Below are positions 18,683 through 63,778 of a stretch of DNA of 64,000 bases, in pieces. Each line of letters begins with the position of its first letter. Positions within the stretch are counted from its first letter, which is position 1. Source of the stretch: Treponema pallidum subsp. pallidum str. Nichols (GTDB lineage: Bacteria > Spirochaetota > Spirochaetia > Treponematales > Treponemataceae); assembly GCF_000410535.2 (NCBI RefSeq), contig NC_021490.2:344501-408500 (forward strand), given 5' to 3'. The notes under the pieces were generated by a model, which saw only the letters and a list, made by a program, of their open reading frames with translations, did no database searches and was not told the origin of the DNA. Made by a program: the position numbers and the translations under genes.

Positions 18683-20140
18683 GGTGTGGCAGGTGCGTGC
18701 GTATATGCGTTTTACTTCAGCAGCTAAATAGAAAGAACCGATGGCAAGGAGCGCTTTACGTTGCGCAAAACTGGCATACAGTGCACGGGAAATAATTGAC
18801 GCAAAGTCTTCGCTCCAAAAAATTGGGACTGTTTGGTGAAATGTCGTACGAAACGCGTGGTATGTTTTTTGTATATCTGCATGTTTAGATGTGCCCGGTA
18901 TGGTTAAAAAAATTTCGCTGGCGGCATGTGAAAAAAGAGGGGGGAACTGGGACACTGCTTTGTCCGCCGCGCACGCAAAGAGTAAAATGTATTGTGCAGA
19001 AGGTAGTAAAGAAGAGAACGTACGACATGCGCACCGTATACTCTGCGTAGTGTGCGCACCGTCAATCACTATGAGTGGATCTTCCTGCATAATTTCAAAG
19101 CGTGCTGGCACGTATGCACGGGACAGTCCCCGCTCGATTAACGTTTCGCTCACGGTAGGAAATAAATATTTTGCCGCGCACGCAGCCAGTGCTGCATTTT
19201 TTGCCTGAACAATATCGCATAACGCGAGTGTGCAGTGTATATTTCGAGCGAATAATCTGCCAACAGGATGCGCGGCGTTAAAACTGAGAGTTGCAGTGTG
19301 TGTGAAGTGTTTTATTGAACTTTCAATATGTGTGACCATATCTGGTAAGTAAAAGAAGGGAGCATGTTTTTCTCGCGCGATATGTTTAAAAACGTGCAAT
19401 GCATCTTCTGGCTGATCAAAACAAAAAATAGGCGTATAGGGTTTGATAATGCCGCCCTTTTCTTTTGCAATACTTTTTATACGTGTTCCTAATATGCGCG
19501 TGTGTTCTTGTTCTATGGGGAGAAGGAGACAGATACTAGGACAAATGATGTTTGTTGCATCTAGTCTTCCTCCAAGTCCTACTTCAAAAACGGACCATTC
19601 CATGCGTTGTTGTGCAAATAGCATGAACGCCAGTAGCGTTATAAGCTCAAACCACGTCGCCTGGCCGTAGTCGCGCAGATTCTCTGTTTTTTTCACCGTG
19701 TGGTATACGTGTGTGCACGCGCTTGCATACTCGGCAGGTGAAAAAAACACACCCGCGCGTGTTATTCTCTCTCTCGGATCCATAACGTGAGGAGAAGCGT
19801 ATAGCCCGGTGTTGAATCCAATTTCATTGAGTATCGCTGCAAGCATACGTGCGCTGGAACCTTTTCCCTTCGTGCCCGCAACATGGATGCTCTGATATGC
19901 GTTGTGTGGATTACAAAGCGCGCGTGCAAGTGCAGTCATCCTGTGCAGAGGTGGTGTGCCGCTTGGGGGCATTTTCTCAAGCGTGCGAATGCGCTCAACC
20001 CAGGCGTAAAAATCTTGAAAAGAATGCACCGGTATATGTGAAACTCCGTGTGCGCTCGGTCGCACTATAATATGCGGTACGGAAGAGGCAGCAATCCTTG
20101 CCGGGAAAGAGAACTGATGTACATTGCTAAGGTCTGACAT
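18668..20140 (-). CDS. folC: Folylpolyglutamate/dihydrofolate synthase
   Basis: FolC adds glutamate to folates in an ATP-dependent Mur-ligase-like reaction. The P-loop is VAGTKGKGSSARM near residue 90. SPHVMDPRERI, VFEVGLGGRLDATN and the C-terminal IVIDGAHTTQSI follow in the family order. It has 490 residues, longer than typical (about 430) mainly through an N-terminal lead of about 40 residues. No ribosome site is visible before ATG 20140. Its start is only 18 bp from the divergent murC start, so the two genes share a very short control region. Confidence 0.92.
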   Translation of the reverse strand: MSDLSNVHQFSFPARIAASSVPHIIVRPSAHGVSHIPVHSFQDFYAWVERIRTLEKMPPSGTPPLHRMTALARALCNPHNAYQSIHVAGTKGKGSSARMLAAILNEIGFNTGLYASPHVMDPRERITRAGVFFSPAEYASACTHVYHTVKKTENLRDYGQATWFELITLLAFMLFAQQRMEWSVFEVGLGGRLDATNIICPSICLLLPIEQEHTRILGTRIKSIAKEKGGIIKPYTPIFCFDQPEDALHVFKHIAREKHAPFFYLPDMVTHIESSIKHFTHTATLSFNAAHPVGRLFARNIHCTLALCDIVQAKNAALAACAAKYLFPTVSETLIERGLSRAYVPARFEIMQEDPLIVIDGAHTTQSIRCACRTFSSLLPSAQYILLFACAADKAVSQFPPLFSHAASEIFLTIPGTSKHADIQKTYHAFRTTFHQTVPIFWSEDFASIISRALYASFAQRKALLAIGSFYLAAEVKRIYARTCHTLPNR

Positions 20141-20152
20141 TTGAGCTAAAAT
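20124..20152 (+). promoter_or_regulatory. Promoter of murC placing the start at the ATG
   Basis: TTGCTA (20124–20129), a 17-bp spacer and TAAAAT (20147–20152) are followed by six bases and then the murC ATG at 20159. A start seven bases after the -10 falls on the A of the ATG, so a leaderless mRNA is predicted; no Shine-Dalgarno is present. Confidence 0.6.
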
Positions 20153-20158
20153 CCGCCC

Positions 20159-21604
20159 ATGAAGCGGGGGACTCTACCAAAAGATGTGTCAGGTATCAAG
20201 ATTCACATGATTGGTATCAAGGGCACTGGCATGTCTGCGCTTGCAGAGCTACTGTGTGCACGGGGTGCCCGTGTGTCAGGTAGTGATGTTGCAGATGTGT
20301 TTTACACGGATAGGATTCTCGCCCGTTTGGGTGTTCCCGTGCGTACTCCCTTTTCTTGCCAGAACCTTGCTGACGCTCCCGATGTGGTTATCCACTCTGC
20401 AGCCTATGTGCCTGAAGAAAACGACGAGTTGGCAGAGGCGTACCGGCGGGGTATTCCTACCCTTACCTACCCAGAAGCGCTGGGGGACATTTCCTGTGCG
20501 CGGTTTTCGTGTGGTATTGCAGGTGTTCATGGAAAGACGACCACGACCGCGATGATTGCTCAAATGGTAAAGGAGCTGCGCCTTGATGCGTCCGTCCTTG
20601 TGGGGAGCGCTGTTTCGGGAAACAATGATTCTTGTGTGGTTCTTAACGGAGATACCTTTTTTATCGCAGAAACGTGCGAGTACCGTCGGCATTTCCTGCA
20701 TTTTCATCCTCAAAAGATTGTCCTCACCAGTGTTGAGCACGATCACCAGGATTATTACTCCTCGTACGAGGATATACTCGCGGCATACTTTCATTACATA
20801 GATAGGCTTCCTCAATTTGGTGAGTTATTTTATTGCGTGGATGACCAGGGCGTGCGGGAGGTAGTGCAGCTTGCGTTTTTCAGTAGACCGGACCTGGTGT
20901 ATGTTCCTTATGGGGAACGTGCGTGGGGCGATTATGGGGTCAGTATTCACGGTGTTCAAGACCGGAAGATAAGCTTCTCATTGCGGGGTTTTGCAGGTGA
21001 GTTTTATGTTGCGCTCCCCGGTGAGCATAGTGTTTTGAATGCAACCGGTGCGCTCGCATTAGCACTGAGTTTAGTGAAGAAGCAGTATGGAGAGGTTACC
21101 GTTGAGCACCTCACCGCTCTGCGGAAGGTACTCGCTCTTTTTCAGGGATGCCGGCGAAGGAGTGAAGTTCTTGGGGAAGTGCGCGGTATTTTGTTCATGG
21201 ACGATTATGGACATCATCCGACTGCAATTAAAAAGACGCTCCGCGGGTTAAAAACGTTCTTTCCGGAAAGAAGAATTGTCGTCGATTTTATGTCCCATAC
21301 ATATTCGCGTACCGCAGCCCTCCTCACCGAATTTGCTGAGTCTTTTCAGGATGCGGATGTAGTTATTTTGCATGAGATTTACGCCTCTGCTCGGGAAGTG
21401 TATCAGGGCGAGGTGAACGGTGAACATCTTTTTGAATTAACTAAACGGAAGCACCGGCGGGTGTATTATTACGAGGCTGTCATGCAGGCAGTGCCTTTTT
21501 TGCAGGCTGAATTGAAAGAGGGCGACCTGTTCGTTACGCTCGGCGCTGGAGACAATTGCAAATTGGGTGAGGTGTTGTTCAATTATTTTAAAGAGGAGGT
21601 GTAA
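20159..21604 (+). CDS. murC: UDP-N-acetylmuramate–L-alanine ligase
   Basis: MurC joins L-alanine to UDP-MurNAc with ATP, the first peptide step of peptidoglycan precursor synthesis. The nucleotide-sugar motif is HMIGIKGTGMSALAELL, the ATP loop GIAGVHGKTTTTAM, and the Mur ligase motif ETCEYRRHF with VEHDHQDYY. The C-terminal DDYGHHPTAIKKTL is also typical of MurC. Its 481 residues match the family. mraY lies nearby at 26.7 kb. There is no ribosome site; see the promoter at 20124–20152. Confidence 0.94.
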   Translation: MKRGTLPKDVSGIKIHMIGIKGTGMSALAELLCARGARVSGSDVADVFYTDRILARLGVPVRTPFSCQNLADAPDVVIHSAAYVPEENDELAEAYRRGIPTLTYPEALGDISCARFSCGIAGVHGKTTTTAMIAQMVKELRLDASVLVGSAVSGNNDSCVVLNGDTFFIAETCEYRRHFLHFHPQKIVLTSVEHDHQDYYSSYEDILAAYFHYIDRLPQFGELFYCVDDQGVREVVQLAFFSRPDLVYVPYGERAWGDYGVSIHGVQDRKISFSLRGFAGEFYVALPGEHSVLNATGALALALSLVKKQYGEVTVEHLTALRKVLALFQGCRRRSEVLGEVRGILFMDDYGHHPTAIKKTLRGLKTFFPERRIVVDFMSHTYSRTAALLTEFAESFQDADVVILHEIYASAREVYQGEVNGEHLFELTKRKHRRVYYYEAVMQAVPFLQAELKEGDLFVTLGAGDNCKLGEVLFNYFKEEV

Positions 21605-21724
21605 AGTTCGGTTGCGGTTTCGCCAACATGGTGGTGGTGCCGGCTGTGGATCTGGTGGATATAGGGTGAAGTGAGACAGGCTGCGAATGGATGGTGATGC
21701 AAAGAGCGGAGTGCGGAGGGGTGC

Positions 21725-22285
21725 GTGAGTAATCGGTGCGATGTGTCTGGAAATAAGGCGGTACGCATAGCAGTTTCAGGCGCGTCAGGGTGTGGTAATA
21801 CCACCGTGTCTGCATTGCTTGCGGAAAGACTGGGACTTCCCCTAGTGAATTATACGTTTAGGAATATTGCCCGGGAGTTGGGTATCTCTCTTAGTGAGGT
21901 GCTCGAGCGTGCGCGGACGGATAATCATTTTGATAAAGCAGTTGATGCGCGGCAGCTCTGTCTTGCGATGCGTTCTTCCTGCGTGGTAGGGTCGCGCCTG
22001 GCCATTTGGTTGGTGAAAGATGCCGCGCTGAAGGTATATCTTTTGGCTTCATTAAAAGAGCGGGTGAAACGTGTTCTCCAAAGGGAGGGAGGGGACGTAC
22101 AGGATGTTGAGCGATTCACGTCTATGCGTGACGCTGAAGATATGAGTCGCTACAAAAAGTTGTATCGTATTGATAACACGAATTACAGTTTTGCAGATCT
22201 TGTTCTAAACACAGAAGGGTGCGATCAAGAAACAGTGGTGAGTATTATTATTGAAATGTTACGCGCTAGAGGGATAGCTTGGTAG
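21725..22285 (+). CDS. cmk: Cytidylate kinase (archaeal-type), altered P-loop
   Basis: This 186-residue protein resembles the short archaeal-type Cmk that phosphorylates CMP/dCMP: an N-terminal P-loop, [23 protein letters not shown], an [16 protein letters not shown] lid segment with arginines, and [21 protein letters not shown]. The P-loop reads [10 protein letters not shown], with Asn25 where the phosphate-binding Lys normally stands. GTG 21725 is preceded by GGAGGGG. The gene overlaps mutY by 7 bp. Activity with this substitution is uncertain. Confidence 0.82.
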
Positions 22286-23112
22286 GGCTGAGCCAATCTG
22301 CGGGTGATATAGAAAAGTTTCAAAACGCCATATTGGATTTTTATGCACAGCAGGGCAGGGATTTTCCGTGGAGAAGTACTTGCGACGCGTATGCGATACT
22401 GGTGTCTGAGTTTATGTTACAACAGACACAGACGGAGCGGGTGTGTCCGAAGTATGCAGAATGGCTTCATCGTTTTCCTTCTTTGGAGTCTCTTGCGTGC
22501 GCTCCATTTGCGCACGTGCTCCAAGCGTGGATTGGATTAGGATACAACAGGCGCGCTCGTTTTTTGCATCAGTCGGCAAAACTCATTGTTGAAAGGTATT
22601 GTGCAGTAGTTCCTGATGACCCGAGTGAACTAAAGAAGCTCCCCGGTGTCGGTGACTATACTGCCGCTGCAGTTGCTTGCTTTGCGTACAATAAGGCCAC
22701 CGTGTTTTTAGAAACAAACATCCGTGCAGTGTTTATACGCTTTTTCTTTCCCGATACGCACCAGGTCAGTGATCGGGAGTTGCTCTCGCTGGTCCGGTGC
22801 ACCCTGTATGAGGAAAATCCTCGGCGTTGGTACTACGCACTGATGGATTATGGGGCAGTTCTAAAAAGGAAGATTACAAATCCTAATCGTCGCAGCAAGC
22901 ATTACGTGAAGCAGTCACCGTTTGAAGGTTCTCTGAGGCAGGTGCGTGGAGCGGTTTTAAGAGAGATAAGCGGCATGCAACACGCGGTGCGCGAGAAAAC
23001 GCTTTTCGCAAAGCTGTCCTTTGAGCACGAAAGATTGAGCCGCGCTCTAGACTCGCTGGTAAGCGAGGGACTGGTAGTAAAAACAGAGGCTGGGTATTCC
23101 ATCGCTGATTGA
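22279..23112 (+). CDS. mutY: MutY-like adenine glycosylase lacking the Fe-S cluster
   Basis: The 277-residue HhH-GPD protein has the MutY signature [13 protein letters not shown] (general acid Glu44) and a helix-hairpin-helix [18 protein letters not shown]. The catalytic Asp position holds Glu145 (LETNIRAV instead of LDGNV). None of the four cysteines that ligate the 4Fe-4S cluster in classic MutY follow [11 protein letters not shown] winged-helix-like tail replaces the NUDIX-like 8-oxoG domain. MutY normally removes adenine opposite 8-oxoguanine; Fe-S-free relatives are known in other bacteria. TTG 22279 has AGAGGGA upstream and overlaps cmk. Confidence 0.82.
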
Positions 23113-23116
23113 TTCT

Positions 23117-26100
23117 TTATGACTCAAGACGCTTGAGTATTTCACAAATAAAGATGCCTTTCTCTTTTATTTCAATGGCATCTGATGTGAGGATCAGCAT
23201 GTTGGGCTGCTTTGCGTCAAGGCGAACGCGATCGTTGGAGGTCTGTACCAGGCGCAGTATCTTTTTGAAGGCAGTGTCGCAGACCTTGTCAAACTCAATC
23301 AATAAGCTTTCGTGTGTTTCTTTGAGTGAGAGAATGGCGAGCTTTTCGCACCGCACTTTGATTTCTGCCACGGTAAACAACCCAGCTGCTTCCTCAGGGA
23401 TAGGACCGAACCGGGTGATAGTTTCCGTGCGTATGCGCTCAAGCTCCTCATGCGTATGAGCTGCAGCGATTTTTTTATACAGTTCCATTTTAATTTCATC
23501 TGCGGCAATGTACGTATGGGGGATGAACCCTCGGTAATTAAGATCGATGACGGTTTCTATCCTTTGCTCGTTTGGAGCATGTTGGAGGCGTTCTATTGCC
23601 TCTTCTAACAGCTGTACATACAGGTCGAATCCGACTGAATAGATATCTCCTGATTGTTCTTTGCCTAATAGATTTCCTACCCCGCGAATCTCCATATCTT
23701 TTAAGGCGACTTTGAAACCCGCCCCAAGGTCAGTAAAGTCAGAGATCACCTGTAAACGTTTTATTGCAAGGTCTGAAAGTGCCACGTCGTGATAGTACAG
23801 CAGATACGCATATGCTTTTTTGTCAGACCGACCAACGCGTCCCCTGAGTTGGTAGAGCTGGGAAACCCCGTACATATCAGCTCTATCTATGATGATAGTA
23901 TTTGCATTGGGAACGTCGATACCATTTTCAATAATGGTGGTAGAAAGCAGGAGCTGGAACGTTTTTTGATAAAACCTTTCAAAAATGTCTTCCAGTTCTT
24001 CTGACCCCATGAGACTGTGGGCAACGCATATGGATAGCTCAGGCACGAGTTTTTGGAGCATACACTTTACGGATTCTAAGTTTTCGATTCTGTTATGTAG
24101 GTAAAAAATCTGCCCCTCACGATCTAGCTCTTTTCTGATTGCAGTGGCAACAAGGTTTGGATCAAACTGCTGGATAACCGTTTCTATAGGTAGGCGGCCT
24201 TCAGGAGGGGTGGTGAGCAAGCTCATGTCTCTGATTTTGAGCATACCCATGTGAAGCGTTCGGGGAATGGGCGTTGCACTGAGGGAGAGACAATCTACAT
24301 TAGTTTTCATCTGCTTTAATTTTTCTTTATCCTGCACACCGAAACGTTGTTCCTCATCGAGGATCATCAACCCAAGATCCTTGAAGGACACGTCCTTTTG
24401 GATAAGCCGGTGGGTACCCACAATAAGATCGATATCTCCATGCGCGAGTTTGGCGAGTATGTCCTTTTGTTCAGATTTAGGAACAAAGCGTGAGAGCTTC
24501 TCGATTCTGACGGGAAAGTGTTTAAACCGATTGCAGATTGTGCGAAAGTGTTGTTCCACTAGTAAGGTGGTAGGGGTGAGGAACACCACTTGTTTTCCTC
24601 CCATTACCGCCTTAAATGCCGCGCGCATTGCAATCTCTGTTTTTCCGTATCCGACATCTCCGCACACCAGCCGATCCATGGGGACGGCTTCTTGCATATC
24701 CTGTTTGACTTCTTCAATGCATATGCGCTGATCGTCTGTTTCTTCGTAGGGGAATGCTGCTTCAAACGCATACTGCCATTCGTCATCTTTTGGGAAGGCG
24801 TGGCCGCGCGTAGTTTTTCGCAGAGAGTAGAGTTCCACTAGTTTTTGCGCGATGTTTTCAACAGATTTTTTGACACGTGCTTTTCTCGTTTCCCATGACT
24901 TTGACCCAAGGCTATCTAAGTGAGGTTTGTTCCCTTCATTTCCAATGTAACGTTGCACCAGATGTGCCTGCTCAATAGGGATAAGGATCGTTTCTTCCTG
25001 TGCATAGAGGAGGTTTACGTAATCACGTTCTGACTGTGCTGTTTTTATGCGCTCTATTCCCTTAAATAAACCGATGCCGTACTGCGCATGCACCACGTAA
25101 TCCCCGGGATTTAATTCCACAAATGTGTCGATAGGCGTGCTCCGTGCGCGTTGCACTGATTGAGGAGTTTTTCTGCGGCGACCGAAGATTTCGCCTTCTT
25201 GAACGATCAGTATTTTGAGAGCAGGAATGCTAAATCCTGCAGAAAGCGCGCAAGGTAGCACAGTGACGTCGCAACCTTTGACTAGTGCTCTGATGCGCAG
25301 TGCCTGCTGCTCACTTTCTGCAAAGACGAAAACGTGCCATCCGTCTTTTGAAAGACGGAGTAGCTCTTCTTTGAAGTAAGGAATGTTACCGAAGAAGCTG
25401 CGTGCAGGATCGCTTGCCAAGCATATACTTTCGCACGCTGGCAGCTGTGGAAAAAAGTGAGTGAAATACACCGTGTGCAGGTGGAGCGCGCAGACAGCGG
25501 AAAAATCGAGCACTATGTGTTCTGGTTGAGGATACCAGCGCGCAGGTACATGTTCGTGCGCGAGTTGCATTTTATGGTAGAGGTTCCGACACTCGTCTTG
25601 GAGCGCGCGTGCACCGTTGTGCTGGCGTTCGTAGTCAAGATAAAAGACGCTTGGGGGTGAAGGGCTGTGGCGAAAATATTCGAGAACGCAGGTGGGACGT
25701 TCAAAGCACAGTGGATAGAACATTTCCTCCCCTTCATACGTTTTTCTGTGGGTGAGTTCTTCGATACACGGGACGCAGTGGGCAGGACATTCGGACAGTT
25801 TTTGGAGATTTTGGTGGAGGAACGCTATACGCTCCTCACTCCAAAGAATTTCTTTTGCAGCGTACAGTGTGCACGCAGATACCTCTTGCAGGACGGCACA
25901 CGTGGACACCGCCAGTATATGGATACGTTCTATGGTGTTAAAATCACACACGATTCGGTACGCTTGTGTGTTGTCAGCAGCCTGCGCTGCGGCAGCGATA
26001 TCGAGAATTTCTCCCCGGAGAGAAAACTCTGCGCAAGCGCTGACGTGGTCGACACGTGCATATCCCCATTGCATAAGCTGGGCAGCGAGCGTGTGGATCT

Positions 26101-26584
26101 CGATGTGCTCTCCCACACGGAAGGAGCGTTTGAGGGTACGCACATAATCGAGGGGAGGAACGGGGGTGAGCAGTGCACGCTGGGTGAAAACGAACGCGCA
26201 TGGCGCGGTTGCATCGCGCTGTGCGAGTGCGCACAGCGCCTCTACCCGGTGAGAGAACACGTGTGCGTTAGGTGAGACAGGGCGGTAGGGCAGCGACCCC
26301 CACCAGGGCAGCACGCGCGTAGGAACTGCTGCATGTGCAAGGTCGGTGCAGACGGCGGCGACGTCCTGTTCGGTAGGGACTACGAGCACTATGTGTGCGC
26401 AACACGTGCGCACGTATTCGCCAAAAAAGTAGGACCGCAGTCCACCGGTGCACCCTTCAACGCGGTAGGGAAAGCGTGCGGCACGCAGCGAGCGCAGCGC
26501 ATGCTGGAGCTCATTCCAAGAATGGAGTATGCCACGCACAGGCTCCTGGGTACGAGCGTGCATTTCTTGAGCGCGTGTTGACAC
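23117..26584 (-). CDS. mfd: Transcription-repair coupling factor Mfd
   Basis: Mfd removes RNA polymerase stalled at DNA damage and recruits UvrA. The protein has 1155 residues. In order: UvrB-homology region, RNA-polymerase-interaction domain (ELNPGDYVVHAQYGIGLFKGIE), RecG-like helicase with Walker A GDVGYGKTEIAMRA, DEEQRFGV box and LSATPIPRTLHMG, motif VI QLRGRVGR, and a TRCF C-terminal domain. The GTG at 26584 has no ribosome site; a TACACT -10 box ends 7 nt upstream. It converges with mutY, 4 bp apart. Confidence 0.96.
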   Translation of the reverse strand: MSTRAQEMHARTQEPVRGILHSWNELQHALRSLRAARFPYRVEGCTGGLRSYFFGEYVRTCCAHIVLVVPTEQDVAAVCTDLAHAAVPTRVLPWWGSLPYRPVSPNAHVFSHRVEALCALAQRDATAPCAFVFTQRALLTPVPPLDYVRTLKRSFRVGEHIEIHTLAAQLMQWGYARVDHVSACAEFSLRGEILDIAAAAQAADNTQAYRIVCDFNTIERIHILAVSTCAVLQEVSACTLYAAKEILWSEERIAFLHQNLQKLSECPAHCVPCIEELTHRKTYEGEEMFYPLCFERPTCVLEYFRHSPSPPSVFYLDYERQHNGARALQDECRNLYHKMQLAHEHVPARWYPQPEHIVLDFSAVCALHLHTVYFTHFFPQLPACESICLASDPARSFFGNIPYFKEELLRLSKDGWHVFVFAESEQQALRIRALVKGCDVTVLPCALSAGFSIPALKILIVQEGEIFGRRRKTPQSVQRARSTPIDTFVELNPGDYVVHAQYGIGLFKGIERIKTAQSERDYVNLLYAQEETILIPIEQAHLVQRYIGNEGNKPHLDSLGSKSWETRKARVKKSVENIAQKLVELYSLRKTTRGHAFPKDDEWQYAFEAAFPYEETDDQRICIEEVKQDMQEAVPMDRLVCGDVGYGKTEIAMRAAFKAVMGGKQVVFLTPTTLLVEQHFRTICNRFKHFPVRIEKLSRFVPKSEQKDILAKLAHGDIDLIVGTHRLIQKDVSFKDLGLMILDEEQRFGVQDKEKLKQMKTNVDCLSLSATPIPRTLHMGMLKIRDMSLLTTPPEGRLPIETVIQQFDPNLVATAIRKELDREGQIFYLHNRIENLESVKCMLQKLVPELSICVAHSLMGSEELEDIFERFYQKTFQLLLSTTIIENGIDVPNANTIIIDRADMYGVSQLYQLRGRVGRSDKKAYAYLLYYHDVALSDLAIKRLQVISDFTDLGAGFKVALKDMEIRGVGNLLGKEQSGDIYSVGFDLYVQLLEEAIERLQHAPNEQRIETVIDLNYRGFIPHTYIAADEIKMELYKKIAAAHTHEELERIRTETITRFGPIPEEAAGLFTVAEIKVRCEKLAILSLKETHESLLIEFDKVCDTAFKKILRLVQTSNDRVRLDAKQPNMLILTSDAIEIKEKGIFICEILKRLES

Positions 26585-26591
26585 ACGGCCG

Positions 26592-26620
26592 AGTGTAACG
26601 GAGCACTGTGCCTTGTGCTA
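26592..26620 (-). promoter_or_regulatory. Promoter of mfd next to its start codon
   Basis: On the minus strand TACACT (26597–26592) ends seven bases before the GTG of mfd; the -35 (TAGCAC, 26620–26615) is poor. The context CGTTACACTCGGCC resembles the promoters of gnd and the AAA+ ATPase gene. It predicts an mRNA with a leader of about one base. Confidence 0.45.
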
Positions 26621-26691
26621 GTCCCTGAGCGAGAAGGATGCAGCAGGAGAGGGCAAGGGAGGAGAACAGGAAGGAGCACCGGTAGTAGTTG

Positions 26692-27783: not shown

Positions 27784-27849
27784 AGGGAGGGCACCCCTTG
27801 CGGGGCACGCCGGGCCGAGCGAGGGCGACGGTGCGGAGTATCCGGCGCC

Positions 27850-27879
27850 TTGACGTGCGTTTATTTCTTTTGCTAGCCT
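27850..27879 (+). promoter_or_regulatory. Candidate promoter upstream of the paralogue pair
   Basis: TTGACG (27850–27855), an 18-bp spacer and TAGCCT (27874–27879) lie between mraY and the first exported paralogue, giving a leader of about 60 nt. The -10 matches only half the consensus. Confidence 0.35.
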
Positions 27880-27945
27880 GCCCCTAATTGCTTTCCGTTT
27901 CCGGAATGATGGTAGAGGAGACAGGGCGGAAGGCGTGGGGTGTGT

Positions 27946-28641: not shown

Positions 28642-28707
28642 GGGAGTTGGCATTCGGGGGGCGTGTGCGGAAATGAAATGGAGTGGGCTCTGTCTCTTTC
28701 TCCGGAC

Positions 28708-28720
28708 GGGGGGGGGGGGG
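28708..28720 (+). repeat. Homopolymeric G13 tract upstream of paralogue 2
   Basis: Thirteen consecutive G residues end 9 nt before the ATG at 28730, in the position a ribosome site would take. Such tracts change length by slipped-strand mispairing. In T. pallidum, G tracts upstream of tpr genes are known to vary in length and affect expression. Confidence 0.9.
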
Positions 28721-28729
28721 TGCGAACAG

Positions 28730-29440
28730 ATGAACGGAAAGCGTGTGTTTCTGGGCATTGTCGTGGTGGTCTGTGCCGCGCGCTGTTTTTGCGCGGACGT
28801 GTTCTTCTCCTCGCATCTGGGGTATGGGCGTTTCTACGCCGTGGGGAAAGACATTGAGGGGCAGCACATGCACGTTCCAAGCATTGGCGGCGGCGTATGT
28901 GTGGTGGCAGACAGCGGGTTTGCCTTCGCCTGCACGGTGGACGCAGCCCTGACCCGTATAATGCTGAAAACTCAGGCGCTCTTTGGCTATGCCTTTCGGT
29001 GGGGAGCGTTCAGCCTCATCCCCTTGCTTGGGATGGATGTGATTGTGTCGAGCGACCACGCGTTTGGTGTTGCCGCGCAAGTGTCGTTCCAGCATTTGAT
29101 TTCTGAGTGGTGGGGCTTTGCCTTGAGTGTGAGCGGCGGGGTGGACTTTCCGCTCAACCCTAACACCCGCTTTTTAGCAGGTAAGCTGCCTGCAGAAACG
29201 GTGCAGCGCGTGGCGCTCGTTGCGCTGCGGCAAAAGCTTATTAGCGAAGGGATTATCAAGGCATTGGATTTGGGCTGGTTTATTACCTTCGCTCTGACCG
29301 TTGTTGCCGAGGGATTCAGTTGGATTGTGTCGCAGAGCGCTTGGATTGCGCAGAAGGCGGTGAATTACTTTTTGAGCGACACCACGCGTTGTCTCATTCT
29401 CCCGGTCACGCTGCGGGCCGGTCCTACCTTTCGAATATAG
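28730..29440 (+). CDS. Exported beta-rich protein, paralogue 2, behind a poly-G tract
   Basis: The protein has 236 residues with a signal peptide (MNGKRVFLGIVVVVCAARCFC) and the same plan as the preceding gene: FFSSHLGYGRFYAVG, TQALFGYAFRWGAFSLIPLLG, SSDHAFGVAAQVSFQH and a hydrophobic C-terminal third ending LPVTLRAGPTFRI. ATG 28730 is chosen by alignment with the paralogue. Upstream in-frame starts (ATG 28673) would be translated through the G tract, so tract length would then decide the frame. The only ribosome-site-like sequence is the G tract itself. Function unknown; predicted envelope protein. It converges with the Gx-transporter gene. Confidence 0.72.
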   Translation: MNGKRVFLGIVVVVCAARCFCADVFFSSHLGYGRFYAVGKDIEGQHMHVPSIGGGVCVVADSGFAFACTVDAALTRIMLKTQALFGYAFRWGAFSLIPLLGMDVIVSSDHAFGVAAQVSFQHLISEWWGFALSVSGGVDFPLNPNTRFLAGKLPAETVQRVALVALRQKLISEGIIKALDLGWFITFALTVVAEGFSWIVSQSAWIAQKAVNYFLSDTTRCLILPVTLRAGPTFRI

Positions 29441-29445
29441 CGTGC

Positions 29446-29454
29446 GGGGGGGGG
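29446..29454 (+). repeat. Homopolymeric G9 tract between convergent genes
   Basis: Nine consecutive G residues lie in the 19-bp gap between the ends of paralogue 2 (29440) and the convergent Gx-transporter gene (29460). No promoter is expected here, so a regulatory role is doubtful. Confidence 0.8.
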
Positions 29455-29459
29455 CGGAT

Positions 29460-41241: not shown

Positions 41242-43674
41242 ATGAGCGATTACCTCGACGCGGGCAACGAAGAGTTGCTGAAGGATTTTTTCAGCGAGGC
41301 GGAGCAACAGGTTGAGCAGCTCGAAAGCAATATACTCGTCATTGAGCAGGATCCCACCAATCGGGACGCTGTAGACGAGATTTTCCGTGCGGCGCACACC
41401 CTTAAGGGGGGTGCTGCGACTGTTGAGATGCACGAGTTGTCCGGCTTCACGCATGCGGTGGAGGATCTGCTGGATGGGATTCGCTCAGAGAAGGTAACTG
41501 TTGACGGGGCGGTTGTGGACTTGCTCCTGACGTCGTTGGATGTAATTAAGGCGATGCTCGAGTCCCGTGCGGGCGGTGGTCCCTACGCGGAGGATGTCTC
41601 GGATCTCGTTGCGCGTCTGCGCTCGTATCTGCCTGCGTCTGGGACTGTGCCGGGGGCGGCGCGTGGATTGTCGGTGTCTTCGCCAAATGCAGCCGAAGCT
41701 GCAAAGGGGACCGCGGTAGGTGAAGATGGGACGGAAGCCCCTCAGGTAGGGCGAGTGCCGCCGCTGTCTCTTCTTTCTGAATACGATCGGTTGGAATTGC
41801 GCGAGATCGTTCCGCCTGAGCACTCTGTCTACGCGCTTACGGTGCGTTTTGATGAGAGTAATCTGATGAACACGGTCGGCGGTATCCAGGTGTTTACAGC
41901 GTTGAAGTCCTGCGCAAGCGTGCTCAAGACGGTTCCTGATTTCGACGCACTGTATCAGGACATGTTCCATGAGTATGTTGTGTACTTCGTTTCCACTGTG
42001 CAGGATTCAGTATGTGTGTCGCAGGTTGCTTCGATTCCGGACGTTACGCTTTCGGTGAGTGTAGCGGAAGTTGCGCTTGCAGATCTGTGTACTCCCCTCT
42101 CTGAACATGGGGAGCTGGGTGTTTGCGCAGACGCGGGGACAGGTGGTGTGTCCGAAGGGAGCGGCGCTGCCGTGCGCAGCGGAGGGGAACGCGTTCCTAA
42201 CTCCCTGCCGAAACAGGTTGCCGGGTGCGCGGTGCCTTCTGCAAAGGACTCATCAAAGGCTACCTCAAGCGGCTACGGCTCGGGGTCCGTGTTGCGCGTA
42301 GATGCGAAACGCATCGATTATCTTCTGAATTTGGTAAGTGAGACGGTGATTATCAAGGCCTCGCTCAATCAGAGTGCGCTTGAATTTGGGGAGGTGTACA
42401 CCCTATTCCAAAACGCTAATGGCGCGTACAAGGAGCGTTTGCGTAAGTTTTTTGATAGGGTTCCCGCTTACTTAGAAAAGGTAAAGAACGGTCAGGACGC
42501 AGATGCGGTGCGCAAGGGGATGATAGCAGAGGCTGTCGGTGTCTTTGACATTTTTTCTTCGTTTGAGAATGGACTGAAACAGTCCGTCACTAAGTTTCGG
42601 TCTTCTGCTCAGAATTTGGGGCGTATTTCTGGTGAGCTTCAAGAAGGTGTGATGAAAATCCGCATGGTGCCTATTAGCCAGATTTTCAGTCGTTATCCGC
42701 GTGTGGTGCGCGATCTCTCGCGGGACTTGCGTAAAGAGGTGCGGTTGGTCATTGAAGGAGAGGAGACGGAGCTTGATAAGTCTGTGGTTGAAGATTTGCT
42801 CGATCCCATTATGCACTGCGTGCGTAATTCTCTCGACCACGGCATAGAAGCGCCTGAAGTTCGCGCGCGCTCTGGAAAACCGGCGCAAGGTACGCTTCTC
42901 CTGCGCGCAAGCAACGAAGGAAATATGATCGTTATTGAGGTTGCCGATGACGGGCGTGGCATCGACGTGGAGGCAGTGAAGACGAAAGCAGTTGAGCGAG
43001 GTGTGTTGCACCCAGGCAAGAACCTCACTGAGGTTGAGGCGTTCCAACTTATTTTTGCTCCCGGTTTTTCAACCTCTCGGTCGGTTTCTAATGTTTCTGG
43101 TCGGGGTGTGGGGCTTGATGTGGTGAAGACTCACATTGAGAGGCTCAATGGCACTGTCTCCGTCTTTTCGGAAGTGCAGAAGGGAACGCGCTTTGTCATA
43201 AAGCTGCCGCTTACACTGGCAATTATTCAGGGGCTCTTGATACGGGTGGGGCAGGAGGTGTACTCGATACCGATAGCTTCGGTCATCGAAAGCCATCGTA
43301 TCAAGAGTGAAGAGATTAACCGGATTGATAACTACGAGGTGTTCAATGTGCGGAACGAGGTCATTAGCTTGCTGCGTCTCGATAGGCTGTTCGGTATCAG
43401 CTGCGATGATGAGGTGACCGGTCAGTATCACTATGTGGTTATAGTTGGTGCGGCAGAGAAAAAGGTGGGGCTCATGGTGGATGCGCTGATTGGTGAGGAG
43501 GACGTAGTCATCAAGCCACTGCGGGATCAATTCACTAGTTCCCCTGGTATTGCAGGGGCATCTATCCTGGGTGACGGTTCGGTGTCGTTGATTATCGATG
43601 TGGGGCAGCTGCTTGAGCTTGGGTTGAAGCGGGAAATATTGGCGCGTGAGCGTCGAGAAGCCACGGTGTGGTAG
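41242..43674 (+). CDS. cheA: Chemotaxis histidine kinase CheA
   Basis: CheA phosphorylates itself in response to chemoreceptors and passes phosphate to CheY. The 810-residue protein has the five CheA parts: HPt with His52 in RAAHTLKGG, a P2-like region (about 180–290), a dimerisation segment (VLRVDAKRIDYLLNLVSE), the ATPase (N box MHCVRNSLDHGIE, G1 VADDGRGID, G2 SGRGVGLDVV) and a C-terminal CheW-like domain. A low-complexity linker separates HPt and P2. ATG 41242 follows GGGAAG by about 9 nt. First gene of cheA–cheW–cheX–cheY. Confidence 0.97.
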   Translation: MSDYLDAGNEELLKDFFSEAEQQVEQLESNILVIEQDPTNRDAVDEIFRAAHTLKGGAATVEMHELSGFTHAVEDLLDGIRSEKVTVDGAVVDLLLTSLDVIKAMLESRAGGGPYAEDVSDLVARLRSYLPASGTVPGAARGLSVSSPNAAEAAKGTAVGEDGTEAPQVGRVPPLSLLSEYDRLELREIVPPEHSVYALTVRFDESNLMNTVGGIQVFTALKSCASVLKTVPDFDALYQDMFHEYVVYFVSTVQDSVCVSQVASIPDVTLSVSVAEVALADLCTPLSEHGELGVCADAGTGGVSEGSGAAVRSGGERVPNSLPKQVAGCAVPSAKDSSKATSSGYGSGSVLRVDAKRIDYLLNLVSETVIIKASLNQSALEFGEVYTLFQNANGAYKERLRKFFDRVPAYLEKVKNGQDADAVRKGMIAEAVGVFDIFSSFENGLKQSVTKFRSSAQNLGRISGELQEGVMKIRMVPISQIFSRYPRVVRDLSRDLRKEVRLVIEGEETELDKSVVEDLLDPIMHCVRNSLDHGIEAPEVRARSGKPAQGTLLLRASNEGNMIVIEVADDGRGIDVEAVKTKAVERGVLHPGKNLTEVEAFQLIFAPGFSTSRSVSNVSGRGVGLDVVKTHIERLNGTVSVFSEVQKGTRFVIKLPLTLAIIQGLLIRVGQEVYSIPIASVIESHRIKSEEINRIDNYEVFNVRNEVISLLRLDRLFGISCDDEVTGQYHYVVIVGAAEKKVGLMVDALIGEEDVVIKPLRDQFTSSPGIAGASILGDGSVSLIIDVGQLLELGLKREILARERREATVW

Positions 43675-45521: not shown

Positions 45522-45533
45522 GAGGGAGGAAGT

Positions 45534-51401: not shown

Positions 51402-51431
51402 TTGACACGCTGTGTCCGCTTGTCATAGAAT
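51402..51431 (+). promoter_or_regulatory. Promoter of ispE, leaderless type
   Basis: A perfect TTGACA (51402–51407), an 18-bp spacer and TAGAAT (51426–51431) end five bases before the ispE GTG at 51437. There is no ribosome site between them. Confidence 0.72.
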
Positions 51432-51436
51432 GGCGG

Positions 51437-52312
51437 GTGCAGTCGCTGAGTTTGCGCGCTCACGCAAAGGTGAACATGCATCTGTGGGTTGGTGCACGTC
51501 GGGCCGATGGTCTTCACTCGATTGAGAGTGTAATGCAGCGCATTACGCTTGCGGATTCTTTGTCTCTTTCGCGCCTGGATATCCCTGGCCGGTGTGAGGT
51601 GTGTTCGCCTTATATGGCTCTGCCTCGAGAAAACACGCTGACCCGTGCGTATGCGCGGTTTTGTCAGGTAACTGGCGTTCACGATGGTGTGCGCGTGCGC
51701 GTAGTGAAGCGTATCCCTGCAGGGTCTGGACTTGGTGGGGGGTCTGCTGATGCTGCCGCGCTTTTGTGTGGCCTTGATACGTTGTTTGGGACGACCCTTT
51801 CTGCTCGGGTTCTACGAGAAGTGGCGTATAGTGTCGGCAGTGATGTCCCTTTTTTCCTGGCTTCCCAGGCTGCGTGCGTGCTAGGTGGTGGTGAGCAGCT
51901 CGTTCCCCTTGTTCCAAAGACTGGCTATCTGGGGCTTTTGGTCTGGCCGGGATTGCACAGCGGTTCTGCACAGGCCTATGAGGATTTGGACAGGTTGCGT
52001 GCGTGCGGCGTACATGCTGCCGACGGCGAGCAGTACTCTCTGCGTGGGGCTACCGCGCTTTCTGCGCACTATGCACAGGATTGTGCGCGGTGGCGGTTTT
52101 TTAATAGCTTAGATGCCCCTGTACAGCGTCGGTACCCTGTAGTCGCCCTTGCGCGTTGGGATCTGGCCCGTGCGGGTGCGTGCTTTACAGCGATGAGTGG
52201 AAGCGGGAGCGCGGTTTTTGGTCTGTATCGGGATGAGGAGGAGCTTCGGCGCGCGCATAAGCTGCTTGCAAAGCGGTGGTGTTGGTGTGTGCGTGTCCGG
52301 TTATGTGGGTAG
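51437..52312 (+). CDS. ispE: 4-diphosphocytidyl-2-C-methyl-D-erythritol kinase
   Basis: IspE phosphorylates CDP-methylerythritol in the non-mevalonate isoprenoid pathway, which supplies undecaprenyl carriers used by MraY. The 291-residue GHMP kinase shows [20 protein letters not shown], the ATP loop [18 protein letters not shown], and a C-terminal [14 protein letters not shown] 51437 is the only start that keeps the first strand. A consensus promoter ends five bases upstream and no Shine-Dalgarno exists, so a leaderless GTG-start mRNA is predicted. Confidence 0.93.
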
Positions 52313-52320
52313 GATATCTT

Positions 52321-52393: not shown

Positions 52394-52433
52394 TTTGCGG
52401 CGTGTTCGCTTTCTGTGCATGGAGGATTGGATT

Positions 52434-53024: not shown

Positions 53025-53083
53025 ATGGTGCGCGGTGTAACGCGCGCGGTGCGGCACACTGTGCAGCGTGCCCGTCTTTATAG

Positions 53084-56828: not shown

Positions 56829-56867
56829 GGCCCGGCGATCCCTCTGCTGGGGACTCAGTCCGGTGCG

Positions 56868-57478: not shown

Positions 57479-57510
57479 TGTCTATCCCTTTTTTACTGCA
57501 TCGACCTCGT

Positions 57511-58407: not shown

Positions 58408-58509
58408 GAAAGAACACCCATGCCCGCCCCCAGTGTACGAGGGTACAAGGGTGCTGTCAAGCAAGTCTTTATCGCTGTGCAGTGAGTGTTGTGCGTGCTA
58501 CAATGCCCC

Positions 58510-58989
58510 ATGACTGAGGAGACTGCACAACGTGTTATCCGTGCATTGAGAACTGTCGCAGCGCTCATCGTCTGTGTGTTACTTCTCGGCACCTGCGGGG
58601 CGTTCCGTGTGAGGACACACAGTGCTCCAAGGGAAACGCAGACTAGGCGTACAACCCGGGGGATTGCCCAGCGGGAATCTGCCCATGCAGTCTATGCAGA
58701 ACTTGGACGCTTGCGCGCGCTGAGTGCGGATAAGCAGCCTGTGAGTGTCATCATTACCCCACTTTTGCAATATCCTGCCGCAGATCACGCCCTGTATGAG
58801 GAGCTCGTTCAGAAAAAAGAACAACTGAGACGTGCGTCTCTTGCGTGGTGTGCACAGCACACCGCGCAAGAATTGCATATGCTTGGCCCCGAGCAGCTAA
58901 AAATTGCCTTGCGCGATGCGCTCAACACACAGCTGAGTCTCGGGAGAGTTACCCATGTCTTTCTTGAAGAATTTATCATTCTGTTCTGA
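58510..58989 (+). CDS. FliL-like membrane protein
   Basis: The 159-residue protein has one N-terminal helix (LRTVAALIVCVLLLGTCGA) and a C-terminal part with the FliL pattern: AELGRLRALSADKQPVSVIITPLLQYP, then YEELVQKKEQLRRA and LKIALRDALNTQLSLGRVTHVFLEEFIIL. FliL proteins sit at the flagellar basal body and help stator function. No flagellar neighbours are present, so it may be a paralogue. TACAAT (58499–58504) ends five bases before the ATG and no ribosome site is visible. Confidence 0.68.
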   Translation: MTEETAQRVIRALRTVAALIVCVLLLGTCGAFRVRTHSAPRETQTRRTTRGIAQRESAHAVYAELGRLRALSADKQPVSVIITPLLQYPAADHALYEELVQKKEQLRRASLAWCAQHTAQELHMLGPEQLKIALRDALNTQLSLGRVTHVFLEEFIILF

Positions 58990-59063
58990 GCGGCGGTCTT
59001 TACCTGGAACAGGATAGACATCTGGATGGTCCTGCCCATCAAGCAAAATAATGAGATTGCTCT

Positions 59064-61814
59064 TCAGCGGCCACAACAGTGTTTGTACTTTTTGCCACTT
59101 CCACAGGGGCAGGGGGTGTTGCGCCCCACTTTTGCGCCGGCTTGAATCGGGAGAGCAGATAGCGATCCGTGCCCTCTGCCAGGCTGCCCCAGTGCTTGAA
59201 ATTCGTGTGCCGCCTGTGCAACGTGTGGTGGCCTCGGGACGCGCTGCTCTTCCATGTGAACCGTTACGCGCACAACCTGCGAGGCGATCGAAAGGCGAAT
59301 GTCGTCTAACATGGTGTAAAATAGGTCGAACCCTTCAAGCTTGTATTCGGTAAGCGGGTTCTTTTGCCCATATGAACGCAAGTACACCGATTCCCGGAGG
59401 GATTCAAGAAGTTCCAAATGGTCCAGCCATTTTTTATCGATCGCCTGCACATACTGGTAGCGGATGAACGTATCCATGTTCTGCGCCCCTGCAAGCAGAT
59501 ACTTTGATTCAATATTCTTTTTTAAATGCGCCAGGATTTCTTGCTTCAGCGTTCCAAGACGCGTTTCGTTCCAGCCAGATGCGTCCTCACCTCCCAGTGC
59601 GTAATCGAACAGGGTGCTCAGGTTTTGTTGAAACGCCCCGAGGGAAAGCCGCCCACGCCGCTTCAATTCTTGCCGAAGTGCGGTTATTTCTCGGTTAAGA
59701 TACTCCTCGATTGTGGTATACACGCGCTCTACCACATGCTCGTCTATCAAAATTTGTGCTCGCTGCGCGTATATGAAGGAGCGCTGTTCGTTGAGCACAT
59801 CATCGTATTCAAGCAAGTGCTTACGGACATCAAAGTTGCGTGCTTCGACCTTCGTCTGCGCGCGCTCAATACTCTTATTCAACCAGGAATGCGTGATAGG
59901 TTCTCCTGGTTCCATACCCACACGGCTCATAAAACGCTTCAGCCGCTCCCCCCCAAAAATGCGCATAAGATCATCATCCAGAGAGAGAAAAAATTTTGAG
60001 CGGCCTGGATCCCCTTGACGCCCCGAACGCCCCCGAAGTTGGTTATCAATGCGCCTGCTTTCATGCCGCTCTGTGCCAATGACGTACAAACCACCGAGCT
60101 GCTTAACCTCTTCGTAATCTGCGCGCCACCGTGTGTATTCCGCCTCATAGCACGCTTGCATATGTTCCTGCACAGTGACAGAGGAGGAACCGTGCTTCGA
60201 TGCTATGGCAGTTGCGCTCTGTCGTGCACGAAATTCAGGATTACCCCCTAGCTTGATATCCGTGCCGCGTCCGGCCATGTTGGTTGCGATGGTCACCGAA
60301 CCCTTCGCCCCCGCTTCGGCGATAATCAGTGCCTCGCGCGCGTGATTTTTAGCGTTGAGAACTTCGTGTTTTACACCGCGTGTTCTCAGCAGAGCAGAGA
60401 GTTTTTCGGACTTTTCTATAGAAATAGTGCCCACGAGTACCGGCTGTCCCCGTGTGTGTGCCTCCTTTATTTCATCACAAATGGCACTCCACTTTTCTTC
60501 TTCACTCAGGTATACCACGTCATGCTCATCCACCCGCGCTACGGGAAGATTCGTCGGCAAAACTACCACCTCAAGTTTATAAATTTTATTGAGCTCCAAC
60601 GCCTCGGTATCCGCAGTTCCCGTCATTCCAGAAAGCTTTTTATACATTCTAAAAAAGTTCTGAAACGTGATAGTTGCCATAGTGCGATTACGTTGCGCAA
60701 TGCGGATGTGTTCTTTTGCCTCAATTGCCTGATGTAATCCGTCAGAATACCGCCGACCTTCCAAGATGCGACCGGTAAACTCGTCTACGATCTGTACTTG
60801 TCCGTCTTTTACTACGTAATCAACGTCTGCGCGGTAAAGTAAGTGCGCACGGAGTGCCTGCGTAAAGTAGTGGATATACTTGAAGTTCTCTTCATCAAAT
60901 AGACTCCCTTGGATAAGCCCAGCGTGCGTGAGCACATCCTGAATGTGCAGCATCCCCGGACCACTGAAGGAAACCTTGCGATTCTTTTCATCAACGATAT
61001 AATCGCCGCGAACCTCCTCTCCGTCCACTTCGTTGGGGTAGTCACCTGTGGCAGGATTTCGCTCCACTTCCTGTAACTGCCCGACGAGTCTGTCAACCTC
61101 GGCGTAATGCTGGGTATCATTTTCTGCAGGCCCTGAGATAATAAGCGGTGTGCGCGCCTCGTCGATGAGAATGGAGTCAATCTCGTCAATAATGGCAAAG
61201 TAAAAATCACGCTGCGTTTTTTCTTCCGTTAAAAATTGCATGTTGTCGCGCAGATAATCAAAGCCCAGTTCATTGTTGGTACCGTAGGTAATATCGCACG
61301 CGTACGCACACCGCCGCTCCTGACTGCCCATGGAAGAGAGGATGACGCCGACGGAAACGCCTAAATAATCATATACTGGACGCATCCATCGCGCGTCGCG
61401 CTCAGCAAGATAGTCGTTGACCGTGACAATATGCACACCCCTCCCCGAAAGACTGTTCAGATACGCCGCTGCCACGCTCATGAGCGTTTTGCCTTCGCCC
61501 GTTTTCATTTCCACGATTTTGCCGTGGTGGAGGACGAGGGAACCGAGGATCTGCACGTCATAGGGACGCTCGCCTAAAACACGACGAGCTGCCTCGCGCG
61601 CAAGCGCAAATGCCTGAGGTAAAAAAGCGTCAAGCGCTTCTCCTGCAGCGGCACGCGCCTTAAACTCAGCTGTTTTTTGTTTGAACTCAGACTCCTGGAG
61701 AGGAAGTACCCAGGACTCCTGGGCGTTGACGGCATTCAAAAGAGGCAGGAGATTTTTCAGATCGCGCTCGTGCTGGGAGCCAAAGATGAGCCTGAGTGCA
61801 GTGCGTACGAGCAT
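59064..61814 (-). CDS. secA: Preprotein translocase ATPase SecA
   Basis: SecA drives secretory proteins through SecYEG. The 916-residue protein has Walker A VEMKTGEGKTLMSVAAA, DYLAERDARWM, GFDYLRDNM, IIDEIDSILIDEARTPLIISG, NMAGRGTDIKLG and QLRGRSGRQGDPG, and ends in the zinc-binding CPCGSGKKYKHCCGR. ATG 61814 has no ribosome site; a promoter (TTGTTT–17–TACAGT, 61820–61848) ends five bases upstream. A C10/G10 run lies about 60 bp upstream of the start. Confidence 0.97.
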   Translation of the reverse strand: MLVRTALRLIFGSQHERDLKNLLPLLNAVNAQESWVLPLQESEFKQKTAEFKARAAAGEALDAFLPQAFALAREAARRVLGERPYDVQILGSLVLHHGKIVEMKTGEGKTLMSVAAAYLNSLSGRGVHIVTVNDYLAERDARWMRPVYDYLGVSVGVILSSMGSQERRCAYACDITYGTNNELGFDYLRDNMQFLTEEKTQRDFYFAIIDEIDSILIDEARTPLIISGPAENDTQHYAEVDRLVGQLQEVERNPATGDYPNEVDGEEVRGDYIVDEKNRKVSFSGPGMLHIQDVLTHAGLIQGSLFDEENFKYIHYFTQALRAHLLYRADVDYVVKDGQVQIVDEFTGRILEGRRYSDGLHQAIEAKEHIRIAQRNRTMATITFQNFFRMYKKLSGMTGTADTEALELNKIYKLEVVVLPTNLPVARVDEHDVVYLSEEEKWSAICDEIKEAHTRGQPVLVGTISIEKSEKLSALLRTRGVKHEVLNAKNHAREALIIAEAGAKGSVTIATNMAGRGTDIKLGGNPEFRARQSATAIASKHGSSSVTVQEHMQACYEAEYTRWRADYEEVKQLGGLYVIGTERHESRRIDNQLRGRSGRQGDPGRSKFFLSLDDDLMRIFGGERLKRFMSRVGMEPGEPITHSWLNKSIERAQTKVEARNFDVRKHLLEYDDVLNEQRSFIYAQRAQILIDEHVVERVYTTIEEYLNREITALRQELKRRGRLSLGAFQQNLSTLFDYALGGEDASGWNETRLGTLKQEILAHLKKNIESKYLLAGAQNMDTFIRYQYVQAIDKKWLDHLELLESLRESVYLRSYGQKNPLTEYKLEGFDLFYTMLDDIRLSIASQVVRVTVHMEEQRVPRPPHVAQAAHEFQALGQPGRGHGSLSALPIQAGAKVGRNTPCPCGSGKKYKHCCGR

Positions 61815-61819
61815 GGAGT

Positions 61820-61848
61820 ACTGTAGCGGTCTTGAACCAAAAAAACAA
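61820..61848 (-). promoter_or_regulatory. Promoter of secA, leaderless type
   Basis: On the minus strand TTGTTT (61848–61843), exactly 17 bp, and TACAGT (61825–61820) end five bases before the secA ATG. Confidence 0.5.
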
Positions 61849-61874
61849 GGGAGACCGCACGGTCACCCCCTCCT

Positions 61875-61884
61875 CCCCCCCCCC
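61875..61884 (-). repeat. Homopolymeric tract (G10 on the minus strand) upstream of secA
   Basis: Ten consecutive C residues on the plus strand, G on the strand transcribed as secA, lie about 27 bp upstream of the predicted -35 and between the end of the XPB helicase gene and secA. Further G runs (GGAGGAGGGGG) follow toward secA. Confidence 0.85.
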
Positions 61885-61920
61885 TCACACACACAGGGAG
61901 GACTCTGCACGGAGTATCCT

Positions 61921-63741
61921 TTATTCGTGTACTTCGCTTACGCGAAGGGTTTCGTACGTGTAACCCTGCTCTACCAAAAACCGCTGGCGACGCAGTGCAC
62001 AGTCTTCTTCCACCGTTTGTTCTGTAACTAACGAGTAAAAATGGGCGTCGCATATCTTTGGCCGTAAGAGGCGTCCGAGGCGTTGCGCCTCCTCCTGACG
62101 GCTGCCAAATGTCCCGGAAACTTGAATTGCAACCGACGCGTCAGGAAGATCAAGCGCACAATTTGCCACCTTTGATACAACGAGCACCTGGAGCGTGCCC
62201 TCGCGAAAACGCTGATAGATGGCTTCACGCGCCGCATAAGTTTGTCTTCCGCTCACCAGTGGCACCTGCAGTACGTGTGCGAGATGTAATAACTGCTGCA
62301 CGTATTGCCCAATAATCAGTGTAGGCGCACCTGCATGTGCGCGCAATAGACGCTGTACCACCGCTACTTTTGCTTCGTTCTCGCTGGCAAGGCGATGTCG
62401 CAGGCGCACAGGAGCTGTCATGTACTGGTACTGGAGTGACCGGTCCATCGTTACCCGAACTTCTACGCACCGCACCCGTGCGATCCAGCCGCGTGCTTCT
62501 AAATCCTTCCACGGCACGTCATACCGCTTCGGTCCTACGAGGCTGAACACATCCTGCGCACAGCCATCTTCTCGCACGAGCGTTGCAGTTAATCCCAAGC
62601 GTCGTACCACCTGAAGTTCTGCGGTGATACGGAAAAGCGGTGCAGGGAGCAAGTGCACCTCATCGTAAATAATCAAACCCCAACTGCGTTCCATAAAGAG
62701 ACGGAAATGGGAAAAGGGAGCGTCTGCATGCGCACGCCAGGTGAGTATCTGGTAGGTTGCGATAGTCACTGGTCTGATTTCCTTGCATTCTCCTGAATAG
62801 ATACCGATGGATGTCCCGTCCAGGTCGGTTTTTTCACACAATTCACGTTTCCATTGCTGTGCAGCTGCGCTATTAGGAGTCAGAATCAGGGTATCCGTTT
62901 GCAACAGACCCATAACGAGTAAACCGACAACCGTTTTTCCCGCGCCACACGGCAAAACTACCACACCAAATCCGCTCCCTTGTGTGCGATTCCCGACGAA
63001 GGCATCGGCTGCTTCCCACTGGTAGTCACGTGGCACAAACGAGGGTGTCCCTGGCGTGTGACAACACGGATACGCAGTAGAAGGAGGAGGACACGAAGCC
63101 GGAGAGATGCGTAAGCGCAAGGATAGGGGAGTTCCCTCGCGGAGAGGCACTTCATCATGCACCGGCCATCCGTGGCGCAAGAGTAATTGTTTAACGGTGC
63201 CTCGGTGGAGGCGTGGCAATAGAAAGTCGTAACTGCATCCAGTCTGTGCACCCTGCACCTGAGGTGTCGTATCCGGCTGGGCAATGCGCGCAGTGTCCGG
63301 TGTGGGCAGCGGACCGTCCTGCAGGCAAGCGGTTGTGGGGGAAAGGTGCGATGCAAGACTTTTTGAGGCGGCAATTTCTCTTGCGATGTGTGCGTCGCGT
63401 ACCTGAAGGCGCAGTAGGGTGCTGTGCGTCGTATCCTCGCGAAGGCGAATTTTGCCATAGCGGCTCATGATATCCACTACCCAGTCGAGTACTGTTTGCG
63501 GGGGAGTGAAGCGTGAGAAACGCGTCAGTGTTTGTGCAATCATCTGGGGGCTGAATCCTGCGCTCGCGGCGTTCCACAGAGAAAGAGGAGTGAGTCGGTA
63601 GCTGTGTAGATGCTCTGGAGATTTTTCCAGTTCTGCAAAGGAAACGAGCGCCTTGCGTGCTGCTACCGCCTCAGGAGCGTGCACATCAAGTAAAATGGAG
63701 CGGTCTGCTTGGATGATAAGCGGTTTTGGTACAGAAGTCAC
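61921..63741 (-). CDS. XPB/ERCC3-type DNA helicase
   Basis: The 606-residue protein matches the bacterial and archaeal XPB group: an N-terminal helicase-associated domain (SLWNAASAGFSPQMIAQTL), a damage-recognition-like region, Walker A VVLPCGAGKTVVGL, the DEVH box in LIIYDEVHLLPAPLFR, LGLTATLVRED and the C-terminal SGTFGSRQEEAQRLGRLLR. XPB-type helicases open DNA in repair; bacterial copies are little studied. GTG 63741 has no ribosome site; TATAAT ends eight bases upstream. Confidence 0.92.
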   Translation of the reverse strand: MTSVPKPLIIQADRSILLDVHAPEAVAARKALVSFAELEKSPEHLHSYRLTPLSLWNAASAGFSPQMIAQTLTRFSRFTPPQTVLDWVVDIMSRYGKIRLREDTTHSTLLRLQVRDAHIAREIAASKSLASHLSPTTACLQDGPLPTPDTARIAQPDTTPQVQGAQTGCSYDFLLPRLHRGTVKQLLLRHGWPVHDEVPLREGTPLSLRLRISPASCPPPSTAYPCCHTPGTPSFVPRDYQWEAADAFVGNRTQGSGFGVVVLPCGAGKTVVGLLVMGLLQTDTLILTPNSAAAQQWKRELCEKTDLDGTSIGIYSGECKEIRPVTIATYQILTWRAHADAPFSHFRLFMERSWGLIIYDEVHLLPAPLFRITAELQVVRRLGLTATLVREDGCAQDVFSLVGPKRYDVPWKDLEARGWIARVRCVEVRVTMDRSLQYQYMTAPVRLRHRLASENEAKVAVVQRLLRAHAGAPTLIIGQYVQQLLHLAHVLQVPLVSGRQTYAAREAIYQRFREGTLQVLVVSKVANCALDLPDASVAIQVSGTFGSRQEEAQRLGRLLRPKICDAHFYSLVTEQTVEEDCALRRQRFLVEQGYTYETLRVSEVHE

Positions 63742-63749
63742 AGCGCACC

Positions 63750-63778
63750 ATTATACGTTCGCGTTGACCGCGGAGTAA
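63750..63778 (-). promoter_or_regulatory. Promoter of the XPB helicase gene, leaderless type
   Basis: A perfect TATAAT (63755–63750, minus strand) ends eight bases before the GTG; the -35 at 17 bp (TTACTC, 63778–63773) is poor. The predicted leader is about 2 nt. Confidence 0.5.

Follow-up and report, generated by a model that had tools for sequence, protein, structure and literature searches.

Leaderless starts are an already recognised mode of translation and are known in Spirochaetes. In Leptospira interrogans, a member of the same phylum as Treponema pallidum, dRNA-seq mapped the 5' ends of about 440 genes to within 10 nt of the start, and for about half of these genes the distance was under 2 nt (PMC5243855). 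Leaderless genes have also been called frequent in Borrelia, in a passing remark (PMC10618245). The corresponding sequence signature was described as that of TA-led genes, in which a TANNNT motif precedes the start by about 12 bp; such genes were predicted at 1.8-6.9% in 6 of 18 Spirochaetes genomes, and the main text does not name Treponema (Zheng 2011, PMC3160421). In a different phylum, the leaderless transcripts of mycobacteria likewise have a promoter directly upstream and no Shine-Dalgarno (SD) site, and were proven by RNA-seq, ribosome profiling and reporters (Shell 2015, PMC4633059).

We found no report of leaderless mRNAs in T. pallidum in the open-licence literature, and when the main text of a 2025 T. 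pallidum transcriptome, which includes predicted transcription starts, was searched, no mention of leaders or UTRs turned up (PMC12223175). Here we analysed a stretch of 64,000 nucleotides of the T. pallidum subsp. pallidum Nichols genome (NC_021490.2, positions 344,501 to 408,500; the window), in which an initial annotation had claimed at least eight genes with a -10-like box 5-8 nt before the start codon and no SD. The signature is the same as that of TA-led genes, whereas the leaderless 5' ends of Leptospira were measured and concern more genes than those predicted here.

Results

When the sequence was read back, all eight boxes were found exactly at the positions and spacings that had been claimed for them (Table 1).

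Table 1. Predicted promoters with a -10 box close to the start codon, in window positions.
Gene	Span (strand)	-35	-35 to -10	-10	-10 to start	Start	Remark
murC	20124..20161 (+)	TTGCTA 20124-20129	17 bp	TAAAAT 20147-20152	6 nt	ATG 20159	
mfd	26582..26621 (-)	CTAGCA, poor		TACACT 26592-26597	7 nt	GTG 26584	weak member
41134 gene	41132..41168 (-)	TTGACA 41163-41168	17 bp	TAGACT 41140-41145	5 nt	ATG 41134	
cheA	41206..41244 (+)	TTGACC 41206-41211	17 bp	GAAGAT 41229-41234	7 nt	ATG 41242	
ispE	51402..51439 (+)	TTGACA 51402-51407	18 bp	TAGAAT 51426-51431	5 nt	GTG 51437	
FliL-like gene	58476..58512 (+)			TACAAT 58499-58504	5 nt	ATG 58510	
secA	61812..61848 (-)	TTGTTT 61843-61848		TACAGT 61820-61825	5 nt	ATG 61814	
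XPB-type helicase	63739..63779 (-)	weak		TATAAT 63750-63755	8 nt	GTG 63741	

The products matched the Pfam families Mur ligase, TRCF (Mfd), CheA, GHMP kinase (which fits IspE), SecA and XPB-type helicase (ERCC3_RAD25_C), and the FliL match of the FliL-like gene fell just under the cut-off. The product of the 41134 gene, described earlier as a membrane protein, is here an unnamed 138-aa protein for which the Pfam search returned no family. GAAGAT of cheA is a weak box when taken alone, and becomes credible only because relatives carry boxes of the TAGAAT or TATAAA type at the same place. A search of the whole genome with the strict pattern TTGACA-16/18-TAnnnT-4/8-ATG returned five places, one of them the promoter of the 41134 gene, against one in the reversed control, numbers too small for counting.

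Further promoter-like arrangements were seen beside divergent genes. Divergent from the promoter of the FliL-like gene, the minus strand at 58419-58460 carries TTGACA-17-TACACT 10 nt before an ATG; a likely lipoprotein gene begins with a GTG at a somewhat greater distance from this site. At about 548535-548674 of the genome, a LepA-like and a CarD-like gene, named from their N-terminal sequences only, diverge with leaderless-type boxes on both, an arrangement like that of cheA and the 41134 gene.

To compare the frequency of such boxes with chance, we took 400 kb from parts of the genome outside the window, as 20 stretches of 20 kb each. Genes were called with a coding-potential model blind to SD and promoter signals, and those with an SD of at least 4 bases, about half of the total, were classed as SD genes. 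We found that TAnnnT lay 5-8 nt before the start in 16 of 129 non-SD genes, whereas dinucleotide shuffles gave a mean of 6.2 and none of 300 reached 16. SD genes were at background (7/147 against 6.4 in shuffles). Thus, on about 40% of the genome, the predicted excess over shuffled sequence held, and it was confined to non-SD genes. With no more than one mismatch to TATAAT allowed, a stricter criterion, the T. pallidum sample gave 3 against 0.7, a count that 18 of 300 shuffles reached, the sample being too small on its own for this box.

When the window was included and boxes were counted by position, non-SD genes had 20 at 5-8 nt where about 7 were expected and fell to background beyond 8 nt, and SD genes had 8 where 10 were expected. 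The excess amounts to about 13 of 322 genes (about 4%), probably an underestimate because starts called by a simple coding-potential model are noisy. When all near-best start codons were scored, and not a single call for each gene, the background rose and the peak became blurred. Close same-strand followers, which are likely operon-internal, carried the box less frequently, in 2 of 71 cases against 21 of 215 (Fisher p = 0.08).

The same layout was present in three relatives, of which G002 and G003 belong to the same genus as T. pallidum and G010 to another. In all three, non-SD genes showed a peak of boxes at 6-7 nt that was sharper than in T. pallidum; for G010, near-consensus boxes at 5-8 nt numbered 19, with 3-4 expected. 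TAnnnT was depleted at 5-8 nt in the SD genes of the relatives (for example G010), and the 5-nt spacing showed no clear enrichment in them.

Next to these counts stands the comparison of orthologues. For the family, we read the best 30 loci from a search of 60 genomes, and secA was taken from genus genomes only. The start of each orthologue was the start codon nearest the aligned T. pallidum start, chosen blind to promoter motifs, and the box counts include T. pallidum itself. TAnnnT lay at 5-9 nt in 29 of the best 30 XPB helicase loci, 28 of them at exactly 8 nt, and in 27 of 28 family orthologues of cheA, where the -35 CTTGACT is conserved as well. A box at 5-9 nt was found in 24 of the best 30 family loci for murC and in 19 of the best 30 for ispE, many of the latter with TTGACA. 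All seven genus genomes had TAnnnT at 5-7 nt before secA, and most had TTGACA. With genera weighted equally, the box was kept in 13.0 of 14 for XPB (2.1 in shuffles), 8.8 of 9 for cheA (2.3), 8.7 of 10 for murC (1.9) and 7.2 of 11 for ispE (1.9); when a -35 was also required the values were 11.8, 7.8, 6.7 and 4.0, against 0.3-0.4 in shuffles.

SD sites were rare at these starts. At least 4 SD bases were seen in 0/7 orthologues of secA, 0/28 of cheA, 0/28 of mfd, 2/30 of murC, 2/30 of XPB and 3/30 of ispE; the XPB gene of T. pallidum has one 4-base match, which overlaps its own -10 region. As a control we used an SD-led gene for a CheY-like protein, which lies downstream of cheA within the che cluster; its orthologues had the box in 0 of 30 and an SD in 29 of 30. 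Furthermore, among sampled T. pallidum genes, strong leaderless candidates kept the box in 5 of 7 orthologues, compared with 0 of 23 for SD genes (Fisher p=1.5e-4).

The remaining genes of the window gave a different picture. The layout was present in 6 of 10 readable orthologues of the FliL-like gene, with an SD in three. For mfd a box was found in only 5 of 28 family orthologues, and many relatives have a TATTAT-like box 9-13 nt out. The 41134 gene had no homologue in the 60 family genomes searched, although its own promoter is a textbook one.

In ispE, the start of most relatives is 1-3 codons upstream of that in T. pallidum, and their box is displaced upstream to match. That box and start codon move together argues for selection on the spacing between them. 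Together, cheA, XPB, murC, ispE and secA hold a -10 box 5-9 nt from the start, in most cases accompanied by a -35 some 17 bp upstream of it, over many genera for the first four and within the genus for secA. These alignments indicate that selection keeps the layout in the orthologues of these five genes and not in those of mfd; the family offers weaker evidence for the FliL-like gene and none for mfd.

Three of the eight starts are GTG (mfd, ispE and XPB), not two as counted earlier. The initial annotation had regarded GTG as notable at leaderless starts. This was mistaken, as both ATG and GTG function at the 5' end of mycobacterial transcripts (PMC4633059). GTG makes up 92 of the 322 called T. 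pallidum starts (about 29%) and 8 of 28 strong candidates.

Poly-G tracts were also seen in the window. On the minus strand of secA, a run of 10 G lies at 61875-61884, about 60 nt upstream of the start and slightly upstream of the predicted -35. Another of 13 G (28708-28720) lies 9 nt before the ATG at 28730, and one of 9 G (29446-29454) lies between two convergent genes. Poly-G tracts elsewhere in T. pallidum vary in length and affect promoters (PMC7864442), so the gene starting at 28730 may be phase-variable.

Discussion

From the promoter layout and its conservation we infer the position of the RNA 5' end and initiation at it: these are probably sigma-70 promoters that give mRNAs with leaders of 0-2 nt, translated from a start codon at the 5' end. 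Housekeeping sigma-70-type promoters would place the transcription start on the start codon or within about 2 bases of it. The usual transcription start window is 6-9 bp past the -10 box. At a spacing of 6, RNA polymerase would begin transcription with the first base of the start codon, and at other spacings within a base or two of it. A leader of 1-2 nt is possible for XPB, with its spacing of 8. The start site is least certain at a spacing of 5 (secA, ispE, the 41134 gene and the FliL-like gene), where it could fall inside the start codon because of that usual window. The resulting mRNA would lack a leader or carry one with no room for an SD, and the ribosome would start on the 5'-terminal AUG or GUG; operon-internal genes use ordinary SD sites. 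Upstream promoters may also give longer mRNAs on these genes. An RNA-seq survey places nearly 80% of T. pallidum genes in polycistronic units (PMC12223175).

The boxes could in principle be chance TAnnnT hexamers in short intergenic gaps, with the true promoters further upstream and mRNAs whose leaders carry no SD. Such hexamers are common (about 1.2% per position), some of those in T. pallidum are weak (GAAGAT, TACACT), and the one before mfd is not conserved. However, the enrichment is limited to 5-8 nt and to non-SD genes, and 9-14 genera keep the spacing and have a -35 about 17 bp from the box, so that we consider this explanation quite improbable. Even less likely, in our judgement, is an error in the assigned start codons, with translation in fact beginning further downstream at a codon that has an SD of its own. 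The independent gene caller did sometimes choose downstream starts (murC 20186, mfd 26563), but family alignments extend to the first residues of CheA, SecA and XPB, which argues that their starts are right, and the conserved N-terminus MSDYLD makes the start codon of cheA secure.

A somewhat stronger alternative, although still an unlikely one, accepts the promoters as real and places the transcription start 3-8 nt upstream of the start codon, so that ultra-short leaders would be translated through start-codon contacts without an SD. The XPB spacing of 8 nt in nearly all relatives, the 7-9 nt often seen in ispE and cheA, and the transcription start of T. denticola PflaA 14 nt from its start codon (PMC9481697) are in its favour. 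At spacings of 5-7, however, the standard transcription start would coincide with the start codon itself.

Several of the more distant Spirochaetota have an SD-led XPB gene, but members of the order and class of T. pallidum keep the layout. A phylum-wide XPB layout was considered and rejected: a phylum search found it in only 5 of 20 readable loci, one of them from a family member, and several of the others had strong SDs. We likewise dropped pyrG as a conserved leaderless case, since it is predicted to be leaderless in T. pallidum (in the sample) but is mostly SD-led outside the genus. As pyrG and XPB are SD-led in other lineages, genes seem to pass from one mode to the other. Zheng 2011 (PMC3160421) likewise discusses shifts in initiation mechanism among related bacteria. 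We lean slightly towards the view that Treponemataceae have a conserved leaderless core of essential and chemotaxis genes (the XPB helicase, cheA, murC, ispE and secA) that is probably far older than T. pallidum, that genes switch between SD-led and leaderless starts in evolution, and that T. pallidum moved some leaderless starts to GTG.

The useful addition here is the conserved gene set. T. pallidum is difficult to culture and to manipulate genetically, and many of its gene starts are predicted only. A leaderless class would change the start annotation and expression models of essential T. pallidum genes, and the conserved set provides a short list of genes whose 5' ends could be tested directly by mapping in a relative that can be cultured, for example T. 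denticola.
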